From the NCBI GenBank assembly GCA_003167555.1, contig PMSN01000004.1, positions 1 to 64,000 on the forward strand: a stretch of DNA of 64,000 bases, written 5' to 3'. This document shows, one piece after another, positions 54,893 through 64,000 of this stretch (positions are counted from its first letter, which is position 1; the number at the start of each line of letters is the position of its first letter). Origin of the DNA: Spartobacteria bacterium. GTDB taxonomy: Bacteria > Verrucomicrobiota > Verrucomicrobiia > Chthoniobacterales > UBA10450. The notes below the pieces were generated by a model. That model worked only from the letters and a program-made list of their open reading frames with translations, searched no databases and was not told the DNA's origin. The position numbers and the translations under genes were made by a program.

Positions 54893-57328
54893 CTACTCCG
54901 CGCGCAACGCCACCATCGGATCGACGCGGGTAGCGCGATGTGCGGGCAGCAGACACGCGAGGAGCGCGACCGTTCCCAATAACACCGTGACGATGATGAA
55001 CGTCATCGGATCCATCGCGTCCACGCCGTACAGGACGCTCTTGAGCAGACGCGTGGAGGCGAAAGCAATGATAAGTCCGATCACCGAACCGATTAGTGCC
55101 AGCGTCATTCCCTGCCGCAAAATAAGTCTGCGCACGTTCGATGATTGCGCGCCCAGCGCCATACGCAACCCAATCTCGCGAGTGCGGCTGGCCACGACAA
55201 AAGACATCACGCCGTAGATGCCGACAGCCGCGAGCACGAGCGCCAGCACGCCGAAGCTGCCCAGCGCGCCCGCCGCCATTCGCGCCGGGAAAAGCGGGAT
55301 GTTCATATGTTCCGTCAGCGTCTTCGCGTTGAAGACCGGCAGAGTGGGGTCGAGTTGCTGCACCTCGCGCCGCATCGCGGCGAGCGTGCTTTCCGGCTGG
55401 TTGCCTGTCCGGGCGACGACCGTCACCATCGTGCTGTAATCGCGCAGGAGCGGCCGATAAAGCGCGATCTTCTGCTCTTCGCCGAGGCTATTGTATTTTC
55501 CATCCGGGACGACGCCGATGATTTCCCAGAACGGTTTGTCCGGGCCGTTGAAATTAAAACGTTTCCCGATCGCTTCCTCGCCTTTGAAAAAACGGCGCGC
55601 AAAAGTTTCGTTCACGAGCGCGACGCGCGATTCGGTTTGGTTTTCGTCCTCGCGAAAATCCCGGCCCCGCACGGGAATGCCCATGGTGTGAAAATAATTT
55701 GGGCCCGCTTCGAGTGGAATCGCGAGTGGAAGATTACCGTTGCCCGTGGACGGCTGGCCTTCGATATAAATCGTGGTCGAGTTGTAGTTGAGACTCAGCG
55801 GCAGCTCGCCCAGCGCCGCGGACCTGACTCCTGGCAATGCCCGGATGCGCTCCAGCACTTCCTTTTGGAAAGCGCGTCCCTTGGCTTCATCGTACCCCTG
55901 CAAGCCGACGTCGAAGGAAAGTGCGACCGCGTTCTGCGGATCGAAGCCGGGGCGCATCCGCTGCGCGGCCTGGAGACTGCGCACGATGAGCCCGGCGCAA
56001 ATGAGCAGCACGAGCGAAAGCGTGATCTGTGCTACGACGAGGCTGTTGCGCAAACGCGAGCGGCGAAATCCCGCCATGGAGGTTTCATCTTTCAACGCCG
56101 GCACCAGCGCCGGCTTCGACGATTGCAACGCGGGAAGGAGGCTGAAGAGAACGCCGGTCAGAAGAGAGAGGACGATGGTGAATGTGAGCACTCGCCAATC
56201 GAGGCGCAGATCGAAGATCAACGCGACATCGGTGGGCAATTTGATTGCGCCGACGATTCCATTGATCCAGGCGGCGAGCAGAATCCCGAACGCGCCGCCG
56301 ATGAGGGAGAGCATTACGCTTTCAGTCAGTAGTTGGCGGACAAGGCGTGCGCGACTCGCGCCGACCGCCAGCCGGATCGCGATTTCCTTCCGGCGCTGGG
56401 TGGCGCGCGCGAGAAGGAGATTGGCGAGATTCACACAGGCGAGCAGCAACACCAGCGCACCCACGGCCGCGAGGACGAAGGAAAACGCGAAGATGCCATT
56501 GCGGATGTCGGGAATGAACAGGCCGGGCGGGATGAGTTTGAGTCCGCGTCCGGCATCTTCTTTCGGAAAATCTTTCGCGAGCTGCAGCGTGATCGTCTGG
56601 AGCGCCGCCTCCGCTTGCGTGCGCGTCACCCCTGGCTTCAGGCGGCCGACAACGAAGAGGTTGTCGCTGTCGCGTGAGTCGAGGTAGTTACTGCCCGGCT
56701 CGATTTCCTTCGACATCATGAGCGGCACCCAGAATTCCGGCGCGTAGGCGACTTCCGTGCCGAAGAAACCCTTGGGCGCGACACCGACGACGGTGTAAGC
56801 GCGATTGTTGAGCGAGATCGTTTGTCCGACGATCGCCGGATCCGACCCGAAGCGGCGCTGCCAGGTGCCGTAACTAAGAACGGCAACCGGATGCGAGCTC
56901 GGCGTTTGATTTTCTTCCGGGAGGAACGCGCGCCCGAGGGCGGGCTTCACCCCGAGAACGTCGAAGTAATTTCCGCTGACGAGATAACCCCAGACGCGCT
57001 GATTATTTCCGCTGTGACTCAGGCTTGTGACCACCATCCGGTAGGCGAAGAGTCCGGAGAGAACGTCGTTGCGATCGCGGTATTCCTTGTAGTTCGGATA
57101 GGATTGGATCGTGTAGTCGGCGTTGTTATGGAGCGTGCCATAAAGCTCGACGAGCTGGGACGCGTCGCGCACCGGGAGCGGCCGGAGCAACACGGTATCG
57201 ATAAGACTGAAGATGGCGGTGTTCGCGCCGATGCCGAGGGCCATCGAAAAGATCGCGAGGAAAGTGAAGGCGGGACGCTTGCAAAGCTGGCGCGCGCCAT
57301 AACGAAGATCCTGGAAAAGTGTCTGCAT
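54893..57328 (-). CDS. ADOP-type (MacB-like) ABC permease
   Basis: 811 aa. Two FtsX domains: helices near residue 20-45 and 285-400 in the first, 420-440 and 690-800 in the second, with two periplasmic MacB-like domains between. RYGARQLCKRPAFTFLAIFSMALGIGANTAIFSLIDTVLLRPLP is the opening typical of the acidobacterial duplicated orphan permease family. SRTREIGLRMALGAQ is the second coupling region. No ATPase is adjacent, as usual in this family. Confidence 0.93.
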   Translation of the reverse strand: MQTLFQDLRYGARQLCKRPAFTFLAIFSMALGIGANTAIFSLIDTVLLRPLPVRDASQLVELYGTLHNNADYTIQSYPNYKEYRDRNDVLSGLFAYRMVVTSLSHSGNNQRVWGYLVSGNYFDVLGVKPALGRAFLPEENQTPSSHPVAVLSYGTWQRRFGSDPAIVGQTISLNNRAYTVVGVAPKGFFGTEVAYAPEFWVPLMMSKEIEPGSNYLDSRDSDNLFVVGRLKPGVTRTQAEAALQTITLQLAKDFPKEDAGRGLKLIPPGLFIPDIRNGIFAFSFVLAAVGALVLLLACVNLANLLLARATQRRKEIAIRLAVGASRARLVRQLLTESVMLSLIGGAFGILLAAWINGIVGAIKLPTDVALIFDLRLDWRVLTFTIVLSLLTGVLFSLLPALQSSKPALVPALKDETSMAGFRRSRLRNSLVVAQITLSLVLLICAGLIVRSLQAAQRMRPGFDPQNAVALSFDVGLQGYDEAKGRAFQKEVLERIRALPGVRSAALGELPLSLNYNSTTIYIEGQPSTGNGNLPLAIPLEAGPNYFHTMGIPVRGRDFREDENQTESRVALVNETFARRFFKGEEAIGKRFNFNGPDKPFWEIIGVVPDGKYNSLGEEQKIALYRPLLRDYSTMVTVVARTGNQPESTLAAMRREVQQLDPTLPVFNAKTLTEHMNIPLFPARMAAGALGSFGVLALVLAAVGIYGVMSFVVASRTREIGLRMALGAQSSNVRRLILRQGMTLALIGSVIGLIIAFASTRLLKSVLYGVDAMDPMTFIIVTVLLGTVALLACLLPAHRATRVDPMVALRAE

Positions 57329-58390: not shown

Positions 58391-58436
58391 AAATGTAGAG
58401 GCTTTTCTTTTCCGGGAGTTCCACTAGAACGCTGGG
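58391..58436 (+). promoter_or_regulatory. 46-base conserved leader of FHA-cyclase copy 1
   Basis: AAATGTAGAGGCTTTTCTTT..CGCTGGG directly before the ATG; the same 46 bases with two changes precede copy 2 (62962-63007). Its survival suggests a recent duplication or a shared control site. Confidence 0.6.
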
Positions 58437-59294
58437 ATGGATTTGGACGAGGCGGGGGCCTGGCTGGAATCTCCTGGTCGCGAGCGCGTCCAAATTCACG
58501 GGAACTGTTCCTTGGGCAGATCGCTCAAGAGCTCTGTCGTCCTCGATTCGCCCAAGGTCTCGCGCCGTCATGCCGTCATCAATCTGCAAAATGTGGGCGA
58601 GTTCTGGCTTATCGATCTGGGCAGTAGCAACGGAACCTTGCTGAACAAGCGCCGCGTTCACCAACCGGTCCGGCTTTGCCACCTGGATCAGATCACGATA
58701 GGCGACGCTACCTTTACCTTTCGGCAGCCGGAGGAACTTTCCAATGAGTTCCGGACGACTTTGGCCGAGCGCACCATCCGTGAGACGGAGGACCTTCCCT
58801 GCTGGCTCCTTGTGGCCGACATCGAAAATTTCACGCCCTTGAGCCGCAGTCTGGTCAACGACAAGCTTGCCACCCTGATCGGAGGCTGGGTCTCCACCTG
58901 CAAGGAGATCATCGAAGAGCACCAGGGGATGATAAACAAGTATCTTGGTGACGGGTTTCTCGCTTATTGGCGGGAGGACGAAAAAGCGGCGGAGGATGTC
59001 GCCGCGGTGCTCGCTGCTCTCAAGCAAGTTCAGACCCAAAAGCCGCGCTTCAGGATCGCATTGCATTTCGGGTTGGTCGCAGTCGGCGGCATGGAGTCGA
59101 TGGGGGAAGAGAGTTTGATAGGCAAAGAGGTCAACGTCGTTTTCCGAATGGAGAAGCTTGCCGGATCGCTAGGTATCGAATGCCTAACGAGTGCTGCCGC
59201 CAACGATAAGCTCGGGATATTGCTTCCCTCCCATTCAATCGGCTCCCACGAACTCAAAGGCTTCGAAGGGAAGTCCGAGTTCTTCAGTTGTTGA
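58437..59294 (+). CDS. FHA domain-class III nucleotidyl cyclase, copy 1
   Basis: 285 aa cytoplasmic protein. Residues 1-100 form an FHA phosphothreonine reader: GRS (27-29), SRRH (42-45), SSNG (63-66). The cyclase domain follows: Asp128 in VADIENFTPLS, Lys168 and Asp172 in NKYLGDGFLAYW, Asn233 and Arg237 in EVNVVFRME. Metal, base and transition-state residues thus all seem present; the Lys suggests ATP. It faces a Ser/Thr kinase cluster that could supply the phosphothreonine ligand. A paralogue lies at 63008. Confidence 0.9.
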   Translation: MDLDEAGAWLESPGRERVQIHGNCSLGRSLKSSVVLDSPKVSRRHAVINLQNVGEFWLIDLGSSNGTLLNKRRVHQPVRLCHLDQITIGDATFTFRQPEELSNEFRTTLAERTIRETEDLPCWLLVADIENFTPLSRSLVNDKLATLIGGWVSTCKEIIEEHQGMINKYLGDGFLAYWREDEKAAEDVAAVLAALKQVQTQKPRFRIALHFGLVAVGGMESMGEESLIGKEVNVVFRMEKLAGSLGIECLTSAAANDKLGILLPSHSIGSHELKGFEGKSEFFSC

Positions 59295-59331
59295 AGCGGA
59301 CAGGCCGATGTGCGAGAGAAAGTCGCATTTA

Positions 59332-59829
59332 CTACCGTCGGAAAATCGCAGAAGGATTGCCGACAAATGGGCCCTTTAGGGCACCCGTCGCTGTTTTTCC
59401 GTCCGCATTTGGCGTCAACGTCCACGTATACTCCTTAAACCAGCCGGATCGCCATGTAATCGTTGTGCCGTCGCTCGAGACCTTCCTCGTCCCAGTTCCG
59501 AGTCTGGACTTTTCAATCACCGACGTTCCTGAAGGGTCAACCACAAGTGTGTACTCGACGTCCCCCCATATTCCGAACCCCTTAATTGTTCCAATCCAAG
59601 TCCCGGCAAAACGTGCCGGACCCTGTGTCGGTTTCGCGGGAGGTTTCGGGACAGTTTTCGTTTTGAATTCGGACTCGATCGATTTTGATTTCGATGGCGT
59701 CTTCTTCGGCCTGGCTGGCTGTGTCAGAGGCGGTGTCGGGCTTTCCGGAACTTCTTGAATCGGCGCGGGGAGCCGGTGAGCGGAAAACAGAAATAGAACC
59801 AGGCAAAACCACGGCCGTATGACTTTCAT
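59332..59829 (-). CDS. Small exported protein with GTW-domain
   Basis: 165 aa. Signal peptide MKVIRPWFCLVLFLFSA, then HRLPAPIQEVPESPTPP and a Lys/Pro linker. The domain from about residue 68, GPARFAGTWIGTIKG...NADGKTATGALKG, is shared with the preceding gene product, which also carries HRLPAPI. I know no named family. It overlaps that gene by ATGA and is last in the kinase operon. Confidence 0.7.
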   Translation of the reverse strand: MKVIRPWFCLVLFLFSAHRLPAPIQEVPESPTPPLTQPARPKKTPSKSKSIESEFKTKTVPKPPAKPTQGPARFAGTWIGTIKGFGIWGDVEYTLVVDPSGTSVIEKSRLGTGTRKVSSDGTTITWRSGWFKEYTWTLTPNADGKTATGALKGPFVGNPSAIFRR

Positions 59830-60659
59830 TGTGAAGTGACGCTGTAGGTGATCGTCATCGGGACCTCTCGTGGGCAGCCCGGAGTGGCGTGCCATTTCCG
59901 CAACGTCGCGATGGCGGCTTGATCGAGAATCGTTACGCCGGTGGATTGACGCACAGTCACGTCAATTAGGTTTCCCGTTGGTTTGTCGAAATGCAGGAGG
60001 TAGATACCTTGCCCGCTGTAGTGTTGGCCGCGCGCTTCCGGAGGGAGATCAGGACGGGGACCGGACATGGTCCCAGAAGGCGTCAAGGCTACGGAAACAG
60101 TGCTCGGGTTATCCGTGCTTGCTTGCGATGTTATCGCCGGGGTCTCTTTTGTGGCTGCAGGGGTGGTCGTGGTAACGGGCGCTGAACTTCGGTGCAATGT
60201 AGCCGTATTGCTTGCCAAAAGACCTTTGAGAGTCAATTGCGCCGTTTGGCCGTCGTTATTGAGAGTGAGGCTTGCGTTGCTGCCGAGTATGCCGGTGTTC
60301 CAGGAAATAGTATCGCCGCTTACCGTGGCCTCGTGCGTGCCGCCGCCCATGTTCTGGCTTACTTGCACCGAAGTAGCATCGGGATTGATAGTGAACGTGC
60401 CGATGACGTGGCCGAGAAGACCCTGATTGATTTTTCCGCTCCACGTTCCCACAAACCGGGCAGGGCCTTGCAAGGGAGCCGGTGTAGAACGGGTCGTGGC
60501 AGTCTTCTCTTGCGAATAGGTTCGGTGCTGCGATTTCCGTTTGGCGGGCTGTTCCGTCGCCGGCGGTTTGTCCGGAGTTTCGACGATGGGCGCTGGAAGG
60601 CGATGTGACGCTGCCATCAGCAAGCCAAACGTGAGGCAAATGCGAATGGGTCGGTTCAT
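59826..60659 (-). CDS. Exported GTW-domain protein with TonB C-terminal domain
   Basis: 277 aa. Signal peptide (RICLTFGLLMAAS), HRLPAPIVETPDKPP motif, basic linker, then GPARFVGTWSGKINQ... to about residue 150. A Thr-rich linker leads to a TonB C-terminal domain (GQGIYLLHFDKPTGNLIDVTVRQSTGVTILDQAAIATLRKWHATPGCPREVPMTITY). It lies 62 bases after the kinase gene on the same strand. Confidence 0.8.
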   Translation of the reverse strand: MNRPIRICLTFGLLMAASHRLPAPIVETPDKPPATEQPAKRKSQHRTYSQEKTATTRSTPAPLQGPARFVGTWSGKINQGLLGHVIGTFTINPDATSVQVSQNMGGGTHEATVSGDTISWNTGILGSNASLTLNNDGQTAQLTLKGLLASNTATLHRSSAPVTTTTPAATKETPAITSQASTDNPSTVSVALTPSGTMSGPRPDLPPEARGQHYSGQGIYLLHFDKPTGNLIDVTVRQSTGVTILDQAAIATLRKWHATPGCPREVPMTITYSVTSQ

Positions 60660-60721
60660 GTTAAAAAAACGCCGTGAATGTTGCTGCGTTGCGCTACCTA
60701 TGGCGGCGCCGAGAGCACTCT

Positions 60722-62905
60722 TCATGGCGTCAAAGTGGCGACATAAGTTTTTCCGTTGGCCTTGCATTCATAAATCCCGCCGGTGCCATCGGCGTTAAAC
60801 TGGAGCGTAAAAGATTCCGGCTGCCACTGAATGCCTGCCGGTTTGGAGACCACGTCGTCCGTCACAGCGTGCAAAGTTGTTCCATCCAGGACGCCCTTGA
60901 ATTTTACTATCGTATCACCCTTCTTGCTGCCGTAGGTCATCGTACCGGATTTGCGGTCGGCTTCCAGTCTGACGGTTAGTGCCGTTCCCGGCCCGGCTTT
61001 GTCATCGGTGGCGCGAATCGTTCCCTTATAGGTCGCCGGCGAATTTACCGCTGAGATCGTCTGGCCGCTCAGCTTCGCGATATAAGCCTTTCCGCCGGCA
61101 TTGCACTCGTAGGTCGCGCTACTTCCGTCAGAGGTAAAACGCAGGTTAAAGGACTCTGGTGTCCACCCAACCTTTGCCGGTTTGGAAATCACTTCATCAG
61201 TAACGGCGTGCAAAGTTGCTCCCTCCCAGATGCCGTTAAACTTCACCACCATATCGCCGCTCTTGCTGGTTTGGGTCATCGTACCAGATCGCCCGTCAGG
61301 ATTCAGCTTGATACTCAAAGGCACGCCGGGGCTGCTGGAAGGATCGAGTGGAACCGAAATCATTCCTTTGTAAATGGCGGCCGGTTTGCTCAGCGCCACT
61401 GTGGCCTTGAACATCTCTTTGGGTGAAAGCGTTGCCTTCAATTCGCTGGGCAGATAACCCTCGAGCACTAACACGAACGTGGCCTCGCCAGCCGATAAGT
61501 CAGCGCGTTGGAATGGCGTGGTACCTAACAAGGTCGCGCCTCGAAAGACCTGCGCCCCGGCAGGAACACTGTTTAGCTCGATCGCCGACTTGGTGGCTTG
61601 CAGCGTGAGCGTGCCGAGATCGGTAAACTCATTGCCTTTAATCTCGATATCTTTTTCAATAGTGTCGTAGCCGCTCAAGGCGATTCGCATTGGATATTTG
61701 CCGGGCCTAAGTTCTTTGAACGTCACCGGACTTTTTCCCGCGGACGTGCCTCCCAGAGTCACAGTCGCTCCTTCCGGGGAAGTACTCACAATCAATCCGC
61801 CAAGCAGGATGGCCGGTCCCGGCGCTGCTAGGTCGGTCTTGATCGGCTCCGCGACAACGGTTGTCATCTGCGCGGGCTTTGGCGTCGAACGATAGAAACC
61901 AAAATACCAGATGCCCGCTGCCAGGAGGCAGAGAGCACCGGCCACACCCGCGACGATGCGGTAGCTCTGGCGCCGGGGTTTCGGGAGCGGCGGCGTCTTG
62001 CGCGTTTTCGTTTTCGGCGAAGCCAGGGCGAGATGGTCGGCGATGTGGGCGATCGATTGCGGCCGGCGCACCGGATCTTTCGCCAGACAGCTTGCCACCA
62101 CCCGCTCCCAACTTTCGTCGATCCGGTCCCCCTCGATCTCGAGTTCCTTTCGCCGTTGCGTCATGCTGGGCGGGATTTTCTCGCGAATCTGCCGGTCGAC
62201 ATTTCCCGACGAAAAAGGCGGTCTGCCCGTTAGGAGTTCGTAGACGCAGGCGCCGAACGAGTAGATGTCGTCCAAGTGAGTGCCGCGTTCGCCGTCGAGC
62301 TGCTGCGGGCTCATGTAAACGAGGGTGCCGCTCTTCCCGTGCTGCATCGTCACCTTGCTCATCGAGTCGCTTAAGCTGCGGGCAATGCCAAAGTCGGTTA
62401 CCTTGAGGTCGCCGCGCTGATTCACCATGAGGTTCGCCGGTTTGAGATCCCGGTGAATGATGCGCGCGTGATTATGCGCGTAATCGAGCGCATCGCAGAG
62501 CTCGCTCGTCCAATCGGTCAGTTCCGGAATCTCAAAGACTTTGCGCGGTTTGTCCGCGCGCAAATTGGAAAGCGTATCGCCGTCGACGTATTCCATCGAA
62601 ATGCAGCCCGATTGCCCGTCATGCACAAAATCATGAATGCGGACGATGTTCTTATGCGTGAGCTCCAGGCTGCGGCGGGTCTCGCGTTTCAGATCCGACA
62701 AGACCGCGCGATCGTGCACGATCAGCTCAGGCAAAAACTTGAGTGCGACCTCGCGTTCGAGTTCCTCATCGCGAGCCAGCCAGACGACGCCCATGCCGCC
62801 GCGGCCCAACGTCTTGATAAGCGTGTAACGGCCAAAAAGCTTCTGCCCGCCAGAAAATTCTCGCAGGGTAGCATCGAGCCCATTGCTCGAAGTCTCGGCA
62901 CTCAC
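60722..62905 (-). CDS. Membrane Ser/Thr protein kinase with PEGA domains and a duplicated sensor module
   Basis: 727 aa. The kinase domain (residues 24-290) is complete: GRGGMG (35-40), Lys56, HRDLKPAN (151-158), DFG (171-173). One helix at about 316-338 sets the rest outside. Two PEGA domains (about 370-437 and 440-506) carry STSPEGATVTLGG and NSVPAGAQVFRGA. Then two 100-residue repeats (511-613, 625-726), each with SGTMT..S..GD..VKF.G and TLHAVTD..SKPA. GTG start. It is first of a three-gene operon and divergent from cyclase copy 2. Confidence 0.92.
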   Translation of the reverse strand: MSAETSSNGLDATLREFSGGQKLFGRYTLIKTLGRGGMGVVWLARDEELEREVALKFLPELIVHDRAVLSDLKRETRRSLELTHKNIVRIHDFVHDGQSGCISMEYVDGDTLSNLRADKPRKVFEIPELTDWTSELCDALDYAHNHARIIHRDLKPANLMVNQRGDLKVTDFGIARSLSDSMSKVTMQHGKSGTLVYMSPQQLDGERGTHLDDIYSFGACVYELLTGRPPFSSGNVDRQIREKIPPSMTQRRKELEIEGDRIDESWERVVASCLAKDPVRRPQSIAHIADHLALASPKTKTRKTPPLPKPRRQSYRIVAGVAGALCLLAAGIWYFGFYRSTPKPAQMTTVVAEPIKTDLAAPGPAILLGGLIVSTSPEGATVTLGGTSAGKSPVTFKELRPGKYPMRIALSGYDTIEKDIEIKGNEFTDLGTLTLQATKSAIELNSVPAGAQVFRGATLLGTTPFQRADLSAGEATFVLVLEGYLPSELKATLSPKEMFKATVALSKPAAIYKGMISVPLDPSSSPGVPLSIKLNPDGRSGTMTQTSKSGDMVVKFNGIWEGATLHAVTDEVISKPAKVGWTPESFNLRFTSDGSSATYECNAGGKAYIAKLSGQTISAVNSPATYKGTIRATDDKAGPGTALTVRLEADRKSGTMTYGSKKGDTIVKFKGVLDGTTLHAVTDDVVSKPAGIQWQPESFTLQFNADGTGGIYECKANGKTYVATLTP

Positions 62906-62961
62906 GCCGGGAGGTTAGCGACCCGGAATCCTGGGATAAAGCACAAAATGGCGACGTGCAT

Positions 62962-63007
62962 AAATGTGGAGGCTTTTCTTTTCCGCGAGTTCCACTAGAA
63001 CGCTGGG
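62962..63007 (+). promoter_or_regulatory. 46-base conserved leader of FHA-cyclase copy 2
   Basis: Same length and nearly the same bases as 58391-58436 (two differences seen). It lies in the 102-base gap shared with the divergent kinase gene. Confidence 0.6.
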
Positions 63008-63865
63008 ATGGATTTGGAAGAAGCGGGAGCCTGGCTGGAATCACCCGGTCGCGAGCGCGTCCCACTTCGTGGCAACTGCTCGATCGGCCGCTCGCCTAAG
63101 AGCGCTGTCGTCCTCGAGTCCCCCAAGACCTCGCGCCGCCATGCCATTATCAATCTGCAAAACGTCGGCGAGTTCTGGCTCATCGATCTGGGCAGCAGCA
63201 ACGGGACCTTCTTGAACAGGCGCCGCGTTCATCAGCCCGTCCGGCTTTGCGACATGGACCAGATCACCGTCGGCGACGTGGCCTTCACCTTTCGGCAGCC
63301 CGAGGAAATTACCAACGAGATGCGCACGACGATGGCCCAGCAAACGATTCGCGAGACCGCGAACATTCCTTGCTGGCTCCTCGTGGCCGATATCGAAAAT
63401 TTCACGCCGCTCAGCCGGAGCATGGTGAGCGACAAGCTGGCCACGCTCGTCGGCGTCTGGGTCGCGACCTGCAAGAACATCGTCGAAGAGCAGCACGGCG
63501 AGATCGACAAATATCTGGGCGACGGCTTCCTCGCCTACTGGCACGACGACGAGAAGGGCGCGGAAAATCTCGCGACGGCGCTGCAGAAGCTGAAGGAGAT
63601 TCAGAAGAACGAGCCGCGCTTCCGGCTGGCGTTGCACTTCGGGCTGGTCTCGAGTGGTGGCCTCCGCTCGATGGGCGAGGAGAGCTTGATCGGCCGCGAG
63701 GTCATCTTTGTTTTTCGGATGGAAAAACTGGCCGGGTCGTTAGGCGCGCATCTGCTCGCGAGCGAGCCGGCGCGGACAAAGCTGGGCGCACTTGTCCAAT
63801 TTCAACCGGCTGGGTCTTACGACCTCAAAGGCTTCGAAGGCACCTTCGAGTTCTTCAAGAGCTGA
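63008..63865 (+). CDS. FHA domain-class III cyclase, copy 2, with Asn233 changed
   Basis: 285 aa, collinear with copy 1 and highly alike. FHA residues GRS, SRRH and SSNG are kept. In the cyclase domain Asp128, Lys168 and Asp172 (DKYLGDGFLAYW) remain, but Asn233 is Ile (EVIFVFRME), while Arg237 stays. Loss of the transition-state Asn usually weakens class III cyclase activity, so this copy may be a regulator or pseudo-cyclase. It stands divergent from the kinase gene. Confidence 0.9.
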   Translation: MDLEEAGAWLESPGRERVPLRGNCSIGRSPKSAVVLESPKTSRRHAIINLQNVGEFWLIDLGSSNGTFLNRRRVHQPVRLCDMDQITVGDVAFTFRQPEEITNEMRTTMAQQTIRETANIPCWLLVADIENFTPLSRSMVSDKLATLVGVWVATCKNIVEEQHGEIDKYLGDGFLAYWHDDEKGAENLATALQKLKEIQKNEPRFRLALHFGLVSSGGLRSMGEESLIGREVIFVFRMEKLAGSLGAHLLASEPARTKLGALVQFQPAGSYDLKGFEGTFEFFKS

Positions 63866-63951: not shown

Positions 63952-64000
63952 TTACTTGGCGCGGCGATAGATGACGGCGTTGGGATCGTTGACTCTGCTC
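63952..64000 (-). CDS. C-terminal end of an unidentified gene, cut by window edge
   Basis: Reading the minus strand gives ...RVNDPNAVIYRRAK then TAA. The hairpin beyond the stop, and the convergent layout, support a real gene end. Too short to name. Confidence 0.4.
   Translation of the reverse strand, partial: SRVNDPNAVIYRRAK

Follow-up and report, generated by a model that had tools for sequence, protein, structure and literature searches.

Does the cluster of kinase and cyclase genes near the end of a 64,000-nucleotide stretch of a Spartobacteria bacterium genome (Verrucomicrobiota, order Chthoniobacterales; contig PMSN01000004.1, positions 1 to 64,000; hereafter, the window) couple an envelope signal to a cyclic nucleotide, and which of its genes form the unit? 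Five uninterrupted reading frames between positions 58437 and 63865 encode two FHA-cyclases, in each of which an N-terminal FHA domain precedes the class III cyclase domain at the C terminus, a transmembrane (TM) Ser/Thr kinase with PEGA domains, and two secreted proteins. An earlier note on this DNA regarded the two cyclases as flanking a single kinase operon and proposed that FHA domains, as phosphothreonine readers, connect the kinase to the cyclases. Our analysis finds that the association of this type of kinase with FHA-cyclases is conserved and specific, and that the locus is a tandem pair of modules, each consisting of an FHA-cyclase gene that converges on the gene(s) for secreted protein(s) and a kinase. 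We estimate a probability of roughly 0.5 that each module is a dedicated kinase–cyclase pair switched through phosphorylated Thr113 (T113) of the cyclase and its FHA domain.

Conservation and co-inheritance of kinase and FHA-cyclase

Relatives of the cyclase and of the kinase domain were both sought in 147 genomes. The kinase clade was defined by a score gap, its members reaching at least 334 bits and other full-length kinases at most 235 bits; in the genome of the window, the clade comprises the two module kinases only, and the remaining kinases score 133 bits or less. A clade kinase and an FHA-cyclase were found together in 26 genomes, the cyclase alone in 6, and the kinase alone in 9 (Fisher p 8e-16; 4e-11 within the family), although genome relatedness inflates both values. 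A clade kinase lies within 5 kb of the FHA-cyclase in 28 of 41 cases. Among the other 13 FHA-cyclases, seven are at a contig end, and two more (in G004 and G035) lie so close to a contig start that the expected kinase would fall beyond it; in G004, a truncated open reading frame (ORF) there has a match to the PEGA region of the kinase. Another, in G032, has a kinase of a different class 0.9 kb away, and three are clear orphans (G000:C18, G005:C30, and G041:C175).

The pair persists while its layout changes, being convergent in the genus of the window and divergent in other genera. Kinase and cyclase trees built from 26 pairs recover the same main groups, among them the A-type, the B-type, and the G052/G081 pair. 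With three long branches excluded, the kinase and cyclase distance matrices correlate at 0.89, and 0 of 2,000 permutations gave a value as high. Two genomes, G000 and G005, hold both A and B pairs whose partners fall in matching groups, indicating that both genes of the module went through duplication together.

The association is also seen with other kinases in other phyla. A collection of named genomes contained 18 FHA-cyclases, and its 62 remaining class III cyclases served as internal controls. Of the FHA-cyclases, 8 of 18 have a Ser/Thr kinase gene within 2 kb, versus 1 of the 62 controls (p 1.2e-5). A TPR kinase and an FHA-cyclase share one operon in Aminicenantes (L119), and in a deltaproteobacterium (L145) a single operon comprises an FHA-cyclase, an FHA protein, and a kinase. 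The kinases in those phyla belong to other clades, which makes more than one origin of the association probable. Co-occurrence, adjacency, mirrored trees, and this recurrence bear out the kinase–cyclase link drawn in the earlier note. That note had held that a lack of neighborhood conservation in relatives would count against its proposal; in the relatives examined, the kinase–cyclase pairing is kept.

Partner domains, linker threonine, and proposed switch

FHA-cyclase 1 (module A; 58437..59294, plus strand) and FHA-cyclase 2 (module B; 63008..63865, plus strand) are each 285 residues in length, share 72% identity, and match the Pfam FHA model at 71.6 and 70.9 bits, respectively. Cyclase 1 scores 22.7 bits with Guanylate_cyc and carries a complete class III set (D128, K168, D172, S226, N233, and R237), which provides the metal Asp pair, the purine-specifying pair, and the transition-state Asn-Arg expected for PF00211; the codon of the retained Asn233 is at 59133..59135, plus strand. 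Its structural model matches CyaB, CyaC, and Cya2. In class III cyclases, Lys combined with Ser/Thr points to ATP as the substrate, and with Lys168 and Ser226 at the purine-specifying positions, the product of cyclase 1 is most likely cyclic AMP (cAMP). Cyclase 2 falls below the curated Pfam cyclase cut-off (12.0 versus 21.9 bits) and at residue 233 has Ile rather than the transition-state Asn (ATC codon, 63704..63706, plus strand), with the fold and the other residues kept, including both metal Asp, Lys168, and Arg237. The cyclase identity assigned earlier thus stands in full for the first protein and with this reservation for the second.

Ile233 is present in all nine B-type copies, and the same change appears in the distant L113. 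Given a dN/dS of 0.10 for the B-type cyclase domain versus 0.12 for the N233 type, the B-type gene is, by this measure, maintained under purifying selection. The idea that cyclase 2 is a decaying gene found no support, given this value and the precedent of Ma1120 from Mycobacterium avium, which naturally lacks the Asn yet is active (PMC4215837), so that at least one enzyme can dispense with it. Given the same precedent, sequence alone does not reveal whether the B-type is active. The second cyclase could have altered catalysis, and copy B, having lost the transition-state Asn, has probably been retuned.

Kinase A (727 residues; 60722..62905, minus strand; Pkinase 168 bits, PEGA 79 bits) is built of a cytoplasmic tail, the kinase domain, one TM segment (317-337), two PEGA domains, and a C-terminal repeat region. 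It has the Hanks-type motifs GRGGMG (34), VALK (53), HRDLKPAN (151), and DFG (171). Its score against the PASTA/PknB equivalog (NF033483) is below the cut-off (239 versus 450 bits), with PEGA in place of PASTA, as is that of the window kinase against the TOMM kinase/cyclase fusion (TIGR03903; 88 versus 705.75 bits), kinase and cyclase being separate genes here. Kinase B (489 residues, GTG start) has a PEGA domain and belongs to the same clade. Across modules the sensor parts differ (PEGA, GTW, or TPR), with the kinase domain and the FHA-cyclase constant. As a separate observation, six or seven clade kinases with varied outside parts and LDLGQTIRGF-type tails are arrayed beside one divergent FHA-cyclase at G007:C1:97000-115000 (L218, L219).

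On the cyclase side, the FHA phosphothreonine-binding motifs GR, SxxH, and NG are present, with G27 R28, S42..H45, and N65 G66 invariant in 17 diverse members. Thr113 (ACC, 58773..58775, plus strand, in cyclase 1; ACG, 63344..63346, plus strand, in cyclase 2) is the sole invariant residue among linker positions 97-122, being found in 32/32 family members. It is followed by a hydrophobic residue at +1 (32/32) and an acidic one at +3 (29/32), and neighboring positions vary. AlphaFold assigns this linker stretch a pLDDT below 50, and Thr113 is a conserved same-chain Thr outside the folded domains, as expected of an FHA self-ligand. Counting back exactly 15 residues from the metal Asp (Asp-15), Thr is found in 46 of 60 FHA-cyclases versus 7 of 60 non-FHA class III cyclases. 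Among named loci outside the family of the window, 12 of 14 have it (13 of 15 when one family member is counted in), the carriers coming from Cyanobacteria, Deltaproteobacteria, Aminicenantes, and distant Verrucomicrobiota. The linker offers T113 as a candidate phosphosite for FHA binding.

The closest precedent is DgcB of Bdellovibrio bacteriovorus, an FHA-GGDEF diguanylate cyclase whose FHA domain recognizes a phosphothreonine in the same polypeptide, gating the GGDEF domain (PMC6733907). DgcB is the top Foldseek match for the whole-chain model and likewise joins FHA to a nucleotide cyclase; its conserved same-chain Thr is the FHA ligand, and a kinase input has been proposed (PMC6733907). 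Unlike the proteins of the window, which pair a class III cyclase and a linker Thr with a kinase encoded next door, DgcB makes c-di-GMP through GGDEF, has its ligand Thr in an N-terminal tail, and has no identified kinase.

We propose that the membrane-spanning kinase would sense the state of the envelope through its exchangeable outside part (PEGA, GTW-type, or TPR), perhaps assisted in the genus of the window by the secreted barrel proteins. Once active, it would phosphorylate Thr in a T-x-R context, both in its own cytoplasmic tail and at T113 in the FHA-cyclase that is its partner. Phospho-T113 would then be bound by the FHA domain of the same or the other protomer, and this would rearrange the cyclase dimer and switch production of a cyclic nucleotide, most probably cAMP. 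This order of events, phosphorylation followed by dimer rearrangement, is favored because of the invariant FHA residues, the conserved T113, the T-x-R of the kinase tail, and the DgcB precedent; phosphorylation, FHA binding, activation, product, and signal are all steps that we infer.

Four other explanations would account for parts of the same evidence. The FHA domain could serve docking only, binding the T-x-R-[E/D]-F motif of the kinase tail after autophosphorylation and thereby drawing the cyclase to the membrane kinase, with the linker Thr not a ligand. Nearly all clade kinases do have a tail Thr fixed 21 residues ahead of the glycine loop (Thr13 of kinase A, in DATLREF; codon at 62867..62869, minus strand), which the other kinases of the genome lack, and the acidic residue at its +3 position suits an FHA ligand. 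Recruitment of FHA proteins by a kinase tail has a precedent in PknG and GarA. The tail Thr is, however, also kept in clade kinases that lack an adjoining FHA-cyclase, and the linker Thr is conserved where such a tail is absent (L119, L145, and Cyanobacteria), so that docking as the sole function appears unlikely. Most pairs have T-[LSMI]-R-[ED]-F as the tail motif; deep branches have T-I-R-G, and the G017/G020 pairs combine TQRG or TMRG in the kinase with TVRD in the linker. Identity of tail and linker motifs had been considered as proof of a shared ligand, an argument weakened by the TIRG of deep clade kinases and by the differing motifs of the G017/G020 pairs. Somewhat less probable still is a purely structural T113, unphosphorylated and capping a helix of the transducer element that precedes the cyclase domain, with the FHA domain reading a third protein. 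The residue does sit at the class III transducer element, at a fixed 15 residues from the metal Asp, but the scarcity of Thr there in non-FHA cyclases, the low pLDDT of the stretch, and the free variation of neighboring positions argue against it.

We give similarly little credence to the cyclase domain, at least that of module B, being a pseudo-enzyme within a phospho-dependent scaffold or partner subunit. N233I throughout the B-type copies and in L113, together with the weak Pfam score, is what such a protein would display; the retained metal Asp pair, Lys168, and Arg237, the dN/dS matching that of the N233 type, and active Ma1120 all point the other way. Least probable, and in our judgment very improbable, is that the two genes have no functional link and stay neighbors only through lineage and local gene order. 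Related genomes inflate the counts and the three clear orphans fit this explanation, but the pair survives changes of orientation and flanks as well as duplication, and it recurs with other kinase clades in other phyla. Several observations do weigh against a dedicated pair switched through T113. Some clade kinases have no adjoining FHA-cyclase, and the module B cyclase lacks the catalytic Asn. Ten order-level Verrucomicrobiota FHA-cyclases (L068-L077) have no Thr at -15, seven of them having Thr at -16. When Verrucomicrobiota are excluded, the adjacency excess is marginal (2/10 versus 1/59; p 0.053), and no neighboring kinase was found for the cyanobacterial FHA-cyclases, which do have Thr at Asp-15.

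Extent of the modules and neighboring genes

The contig runs 27 kb past the window end at 64000. The next genes after cyclase 2 encode a secreted GTW-domain protein (C14:63952-64557, minus strand; its 3' end, 63952..64000, lies in the window) and kinase B (C14:64538-66007, minus strand). The genes and domains of the five-gene island reported earlier are as stated, but its right boundary was the window edge. We therefore rejected one kinase flanked by two cyclases as a conserved unit, since the edge had hidden the second kinase and relatives mostly carry single modules; the paired cyclases are a local tandem, and TonB_C is restricted to the A-type block. In the relatives G007 and G004, a DUF4440 gene lies immediately upstream of a lone B-type module, indicating that the A block lying between DUF4440 and cyclase 2 in the window is additional.

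The secreted proteins of module A are encoded on the minus strand, with likely starts inferred from their signal peptides: 59829 for the GTW protein (59332..59829, within ORF 59332-59895) and 60659 for the GTW plus TonB_C protein (59826..60659, within ORF 59826-60767; TonB_C 42.2 bits). With these starts, the long ORF overlaps vanish. After the signal peptide, the GTW domain is a predicted eight-stranded β-barrel (AlphaFold pLDDT ~90, residues 76-164) with weak, calycin-like matches to designed barrels, lipocalins, and fatty-acid-binding proteins (E ~1e-3 to 1e-2). The predicted fold is compatible with a binding role, which we offer as a lead. A contig labeled Acidobacteria gp4 AA25 (L109, QHXH01000370.1) contains a module in which the FHA-cyclase is 67% identical and is accompanied by GTW/TonB-like genes; this contig is either misbinned or the result of transfer.

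Approximately 45 bp before the FHA-cyclase start codons (window 58393-58436 and ~62961-63007) are conserved in nine genus copies and end in GTTC-N5-GAAC, about seven bases before the ATG. This stretch may be an operator or, alternatively, a leaderless promoter (CTTTTC-17-TAGAAC). Near the module, a MacB/FtsX-type permease (811 residues) is encoded at window 54893-57328 and is kept beside B-type modules in G004 and G006.

Elsewhere in the genome, cNMP-binding domains occur at about nine places, along with further cyclases, at least 12 Ser/Thr kinases, and two SpoIIE-type phosphatases; no PP2C or PP2C_2 phosphatase was found in the genome. Three of its four FHA domains sit in FHA-cyclases. The third FHA-cyclase (L042; G000:C18:67834-68688) has 91% DNA identity to cyclase 2, and an upstream stretch of 158 bp has an 89% match to the 5' end of the gene for kinase A; by these matches, it is a recent duplicate of FHA-cyclase 2 without a kinase of its own. 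A broken kinase nearby (C18:65997-66754) was rejected as a module relic because its score of 44 bits places it in a different class of kinases. The orphan FHA-cyclase at G005:C30:22512 (L041) combines I233 with a damaged metal-site motif (DKYRCDG) and is apparently decaying.

Relation to known systems and meaning

The modules are variations on known FHA-switch and kinase–cyclase themes. In GarA and OdhI, a Ser/Thr kinase (PknG or PknB) modifies a same-chain Thr that is then bound by the FHA domain; unlike the window proteins, these have no cyclase and control metabolic enzymes. Cyanobacterial FHA-cyclases (L115, L117, L118, L121, and L123) share the FHA plus class III arrangement, a length of ~350 residues, and the Thr at Asp-15, with ~30% identity to those of the window and no neighboring kinase. 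We take Synechocystis Cya1 (slr1991) to have the same layout. Cya1 is the main adenylate cyclase of that organism (PMC10117731). Myxococcus Pkn2 and the TOMM kinase/cyclase fusions (TIGR03903) couple a Ser/Thr kinase to a class III cyclase-like domain (PMC1262709), as here, but do so in a single fused chain with no FHA domain. We found no prior description of FHA-cyclase and kinase pairs in the open-access papers searched, most subscription papers lying outside this search.

Taken more broadly, the modules may exemplify a recurring two-protein kind, comprising a TM kinase with interchangeable sensors and an FHA-gated class III cyclase with a linker-Thr switch. The Thr would be a control site shared by FHA-cyclases of several phyla, and duplicates would include one Asn-less, retuned cyclase. 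We hold this generalization tentatively, at slightly under even odds. If true, such a pair would work like a two-component system with a cyclic nucleotide output. T113 provides a single residue for probing how FHA-cyclases are switched in general, including the cyanobacterial ones. Bacterial Ser/Thr kinases are numerous and their known outputs few, and the pair offers a testable output for a group of kinases from soil bacteria that have been little studied. The evidence suggests that an envelope signal from outside is converted into a cyclic nucleotide inside the cell by a matched kinase and cyclase.

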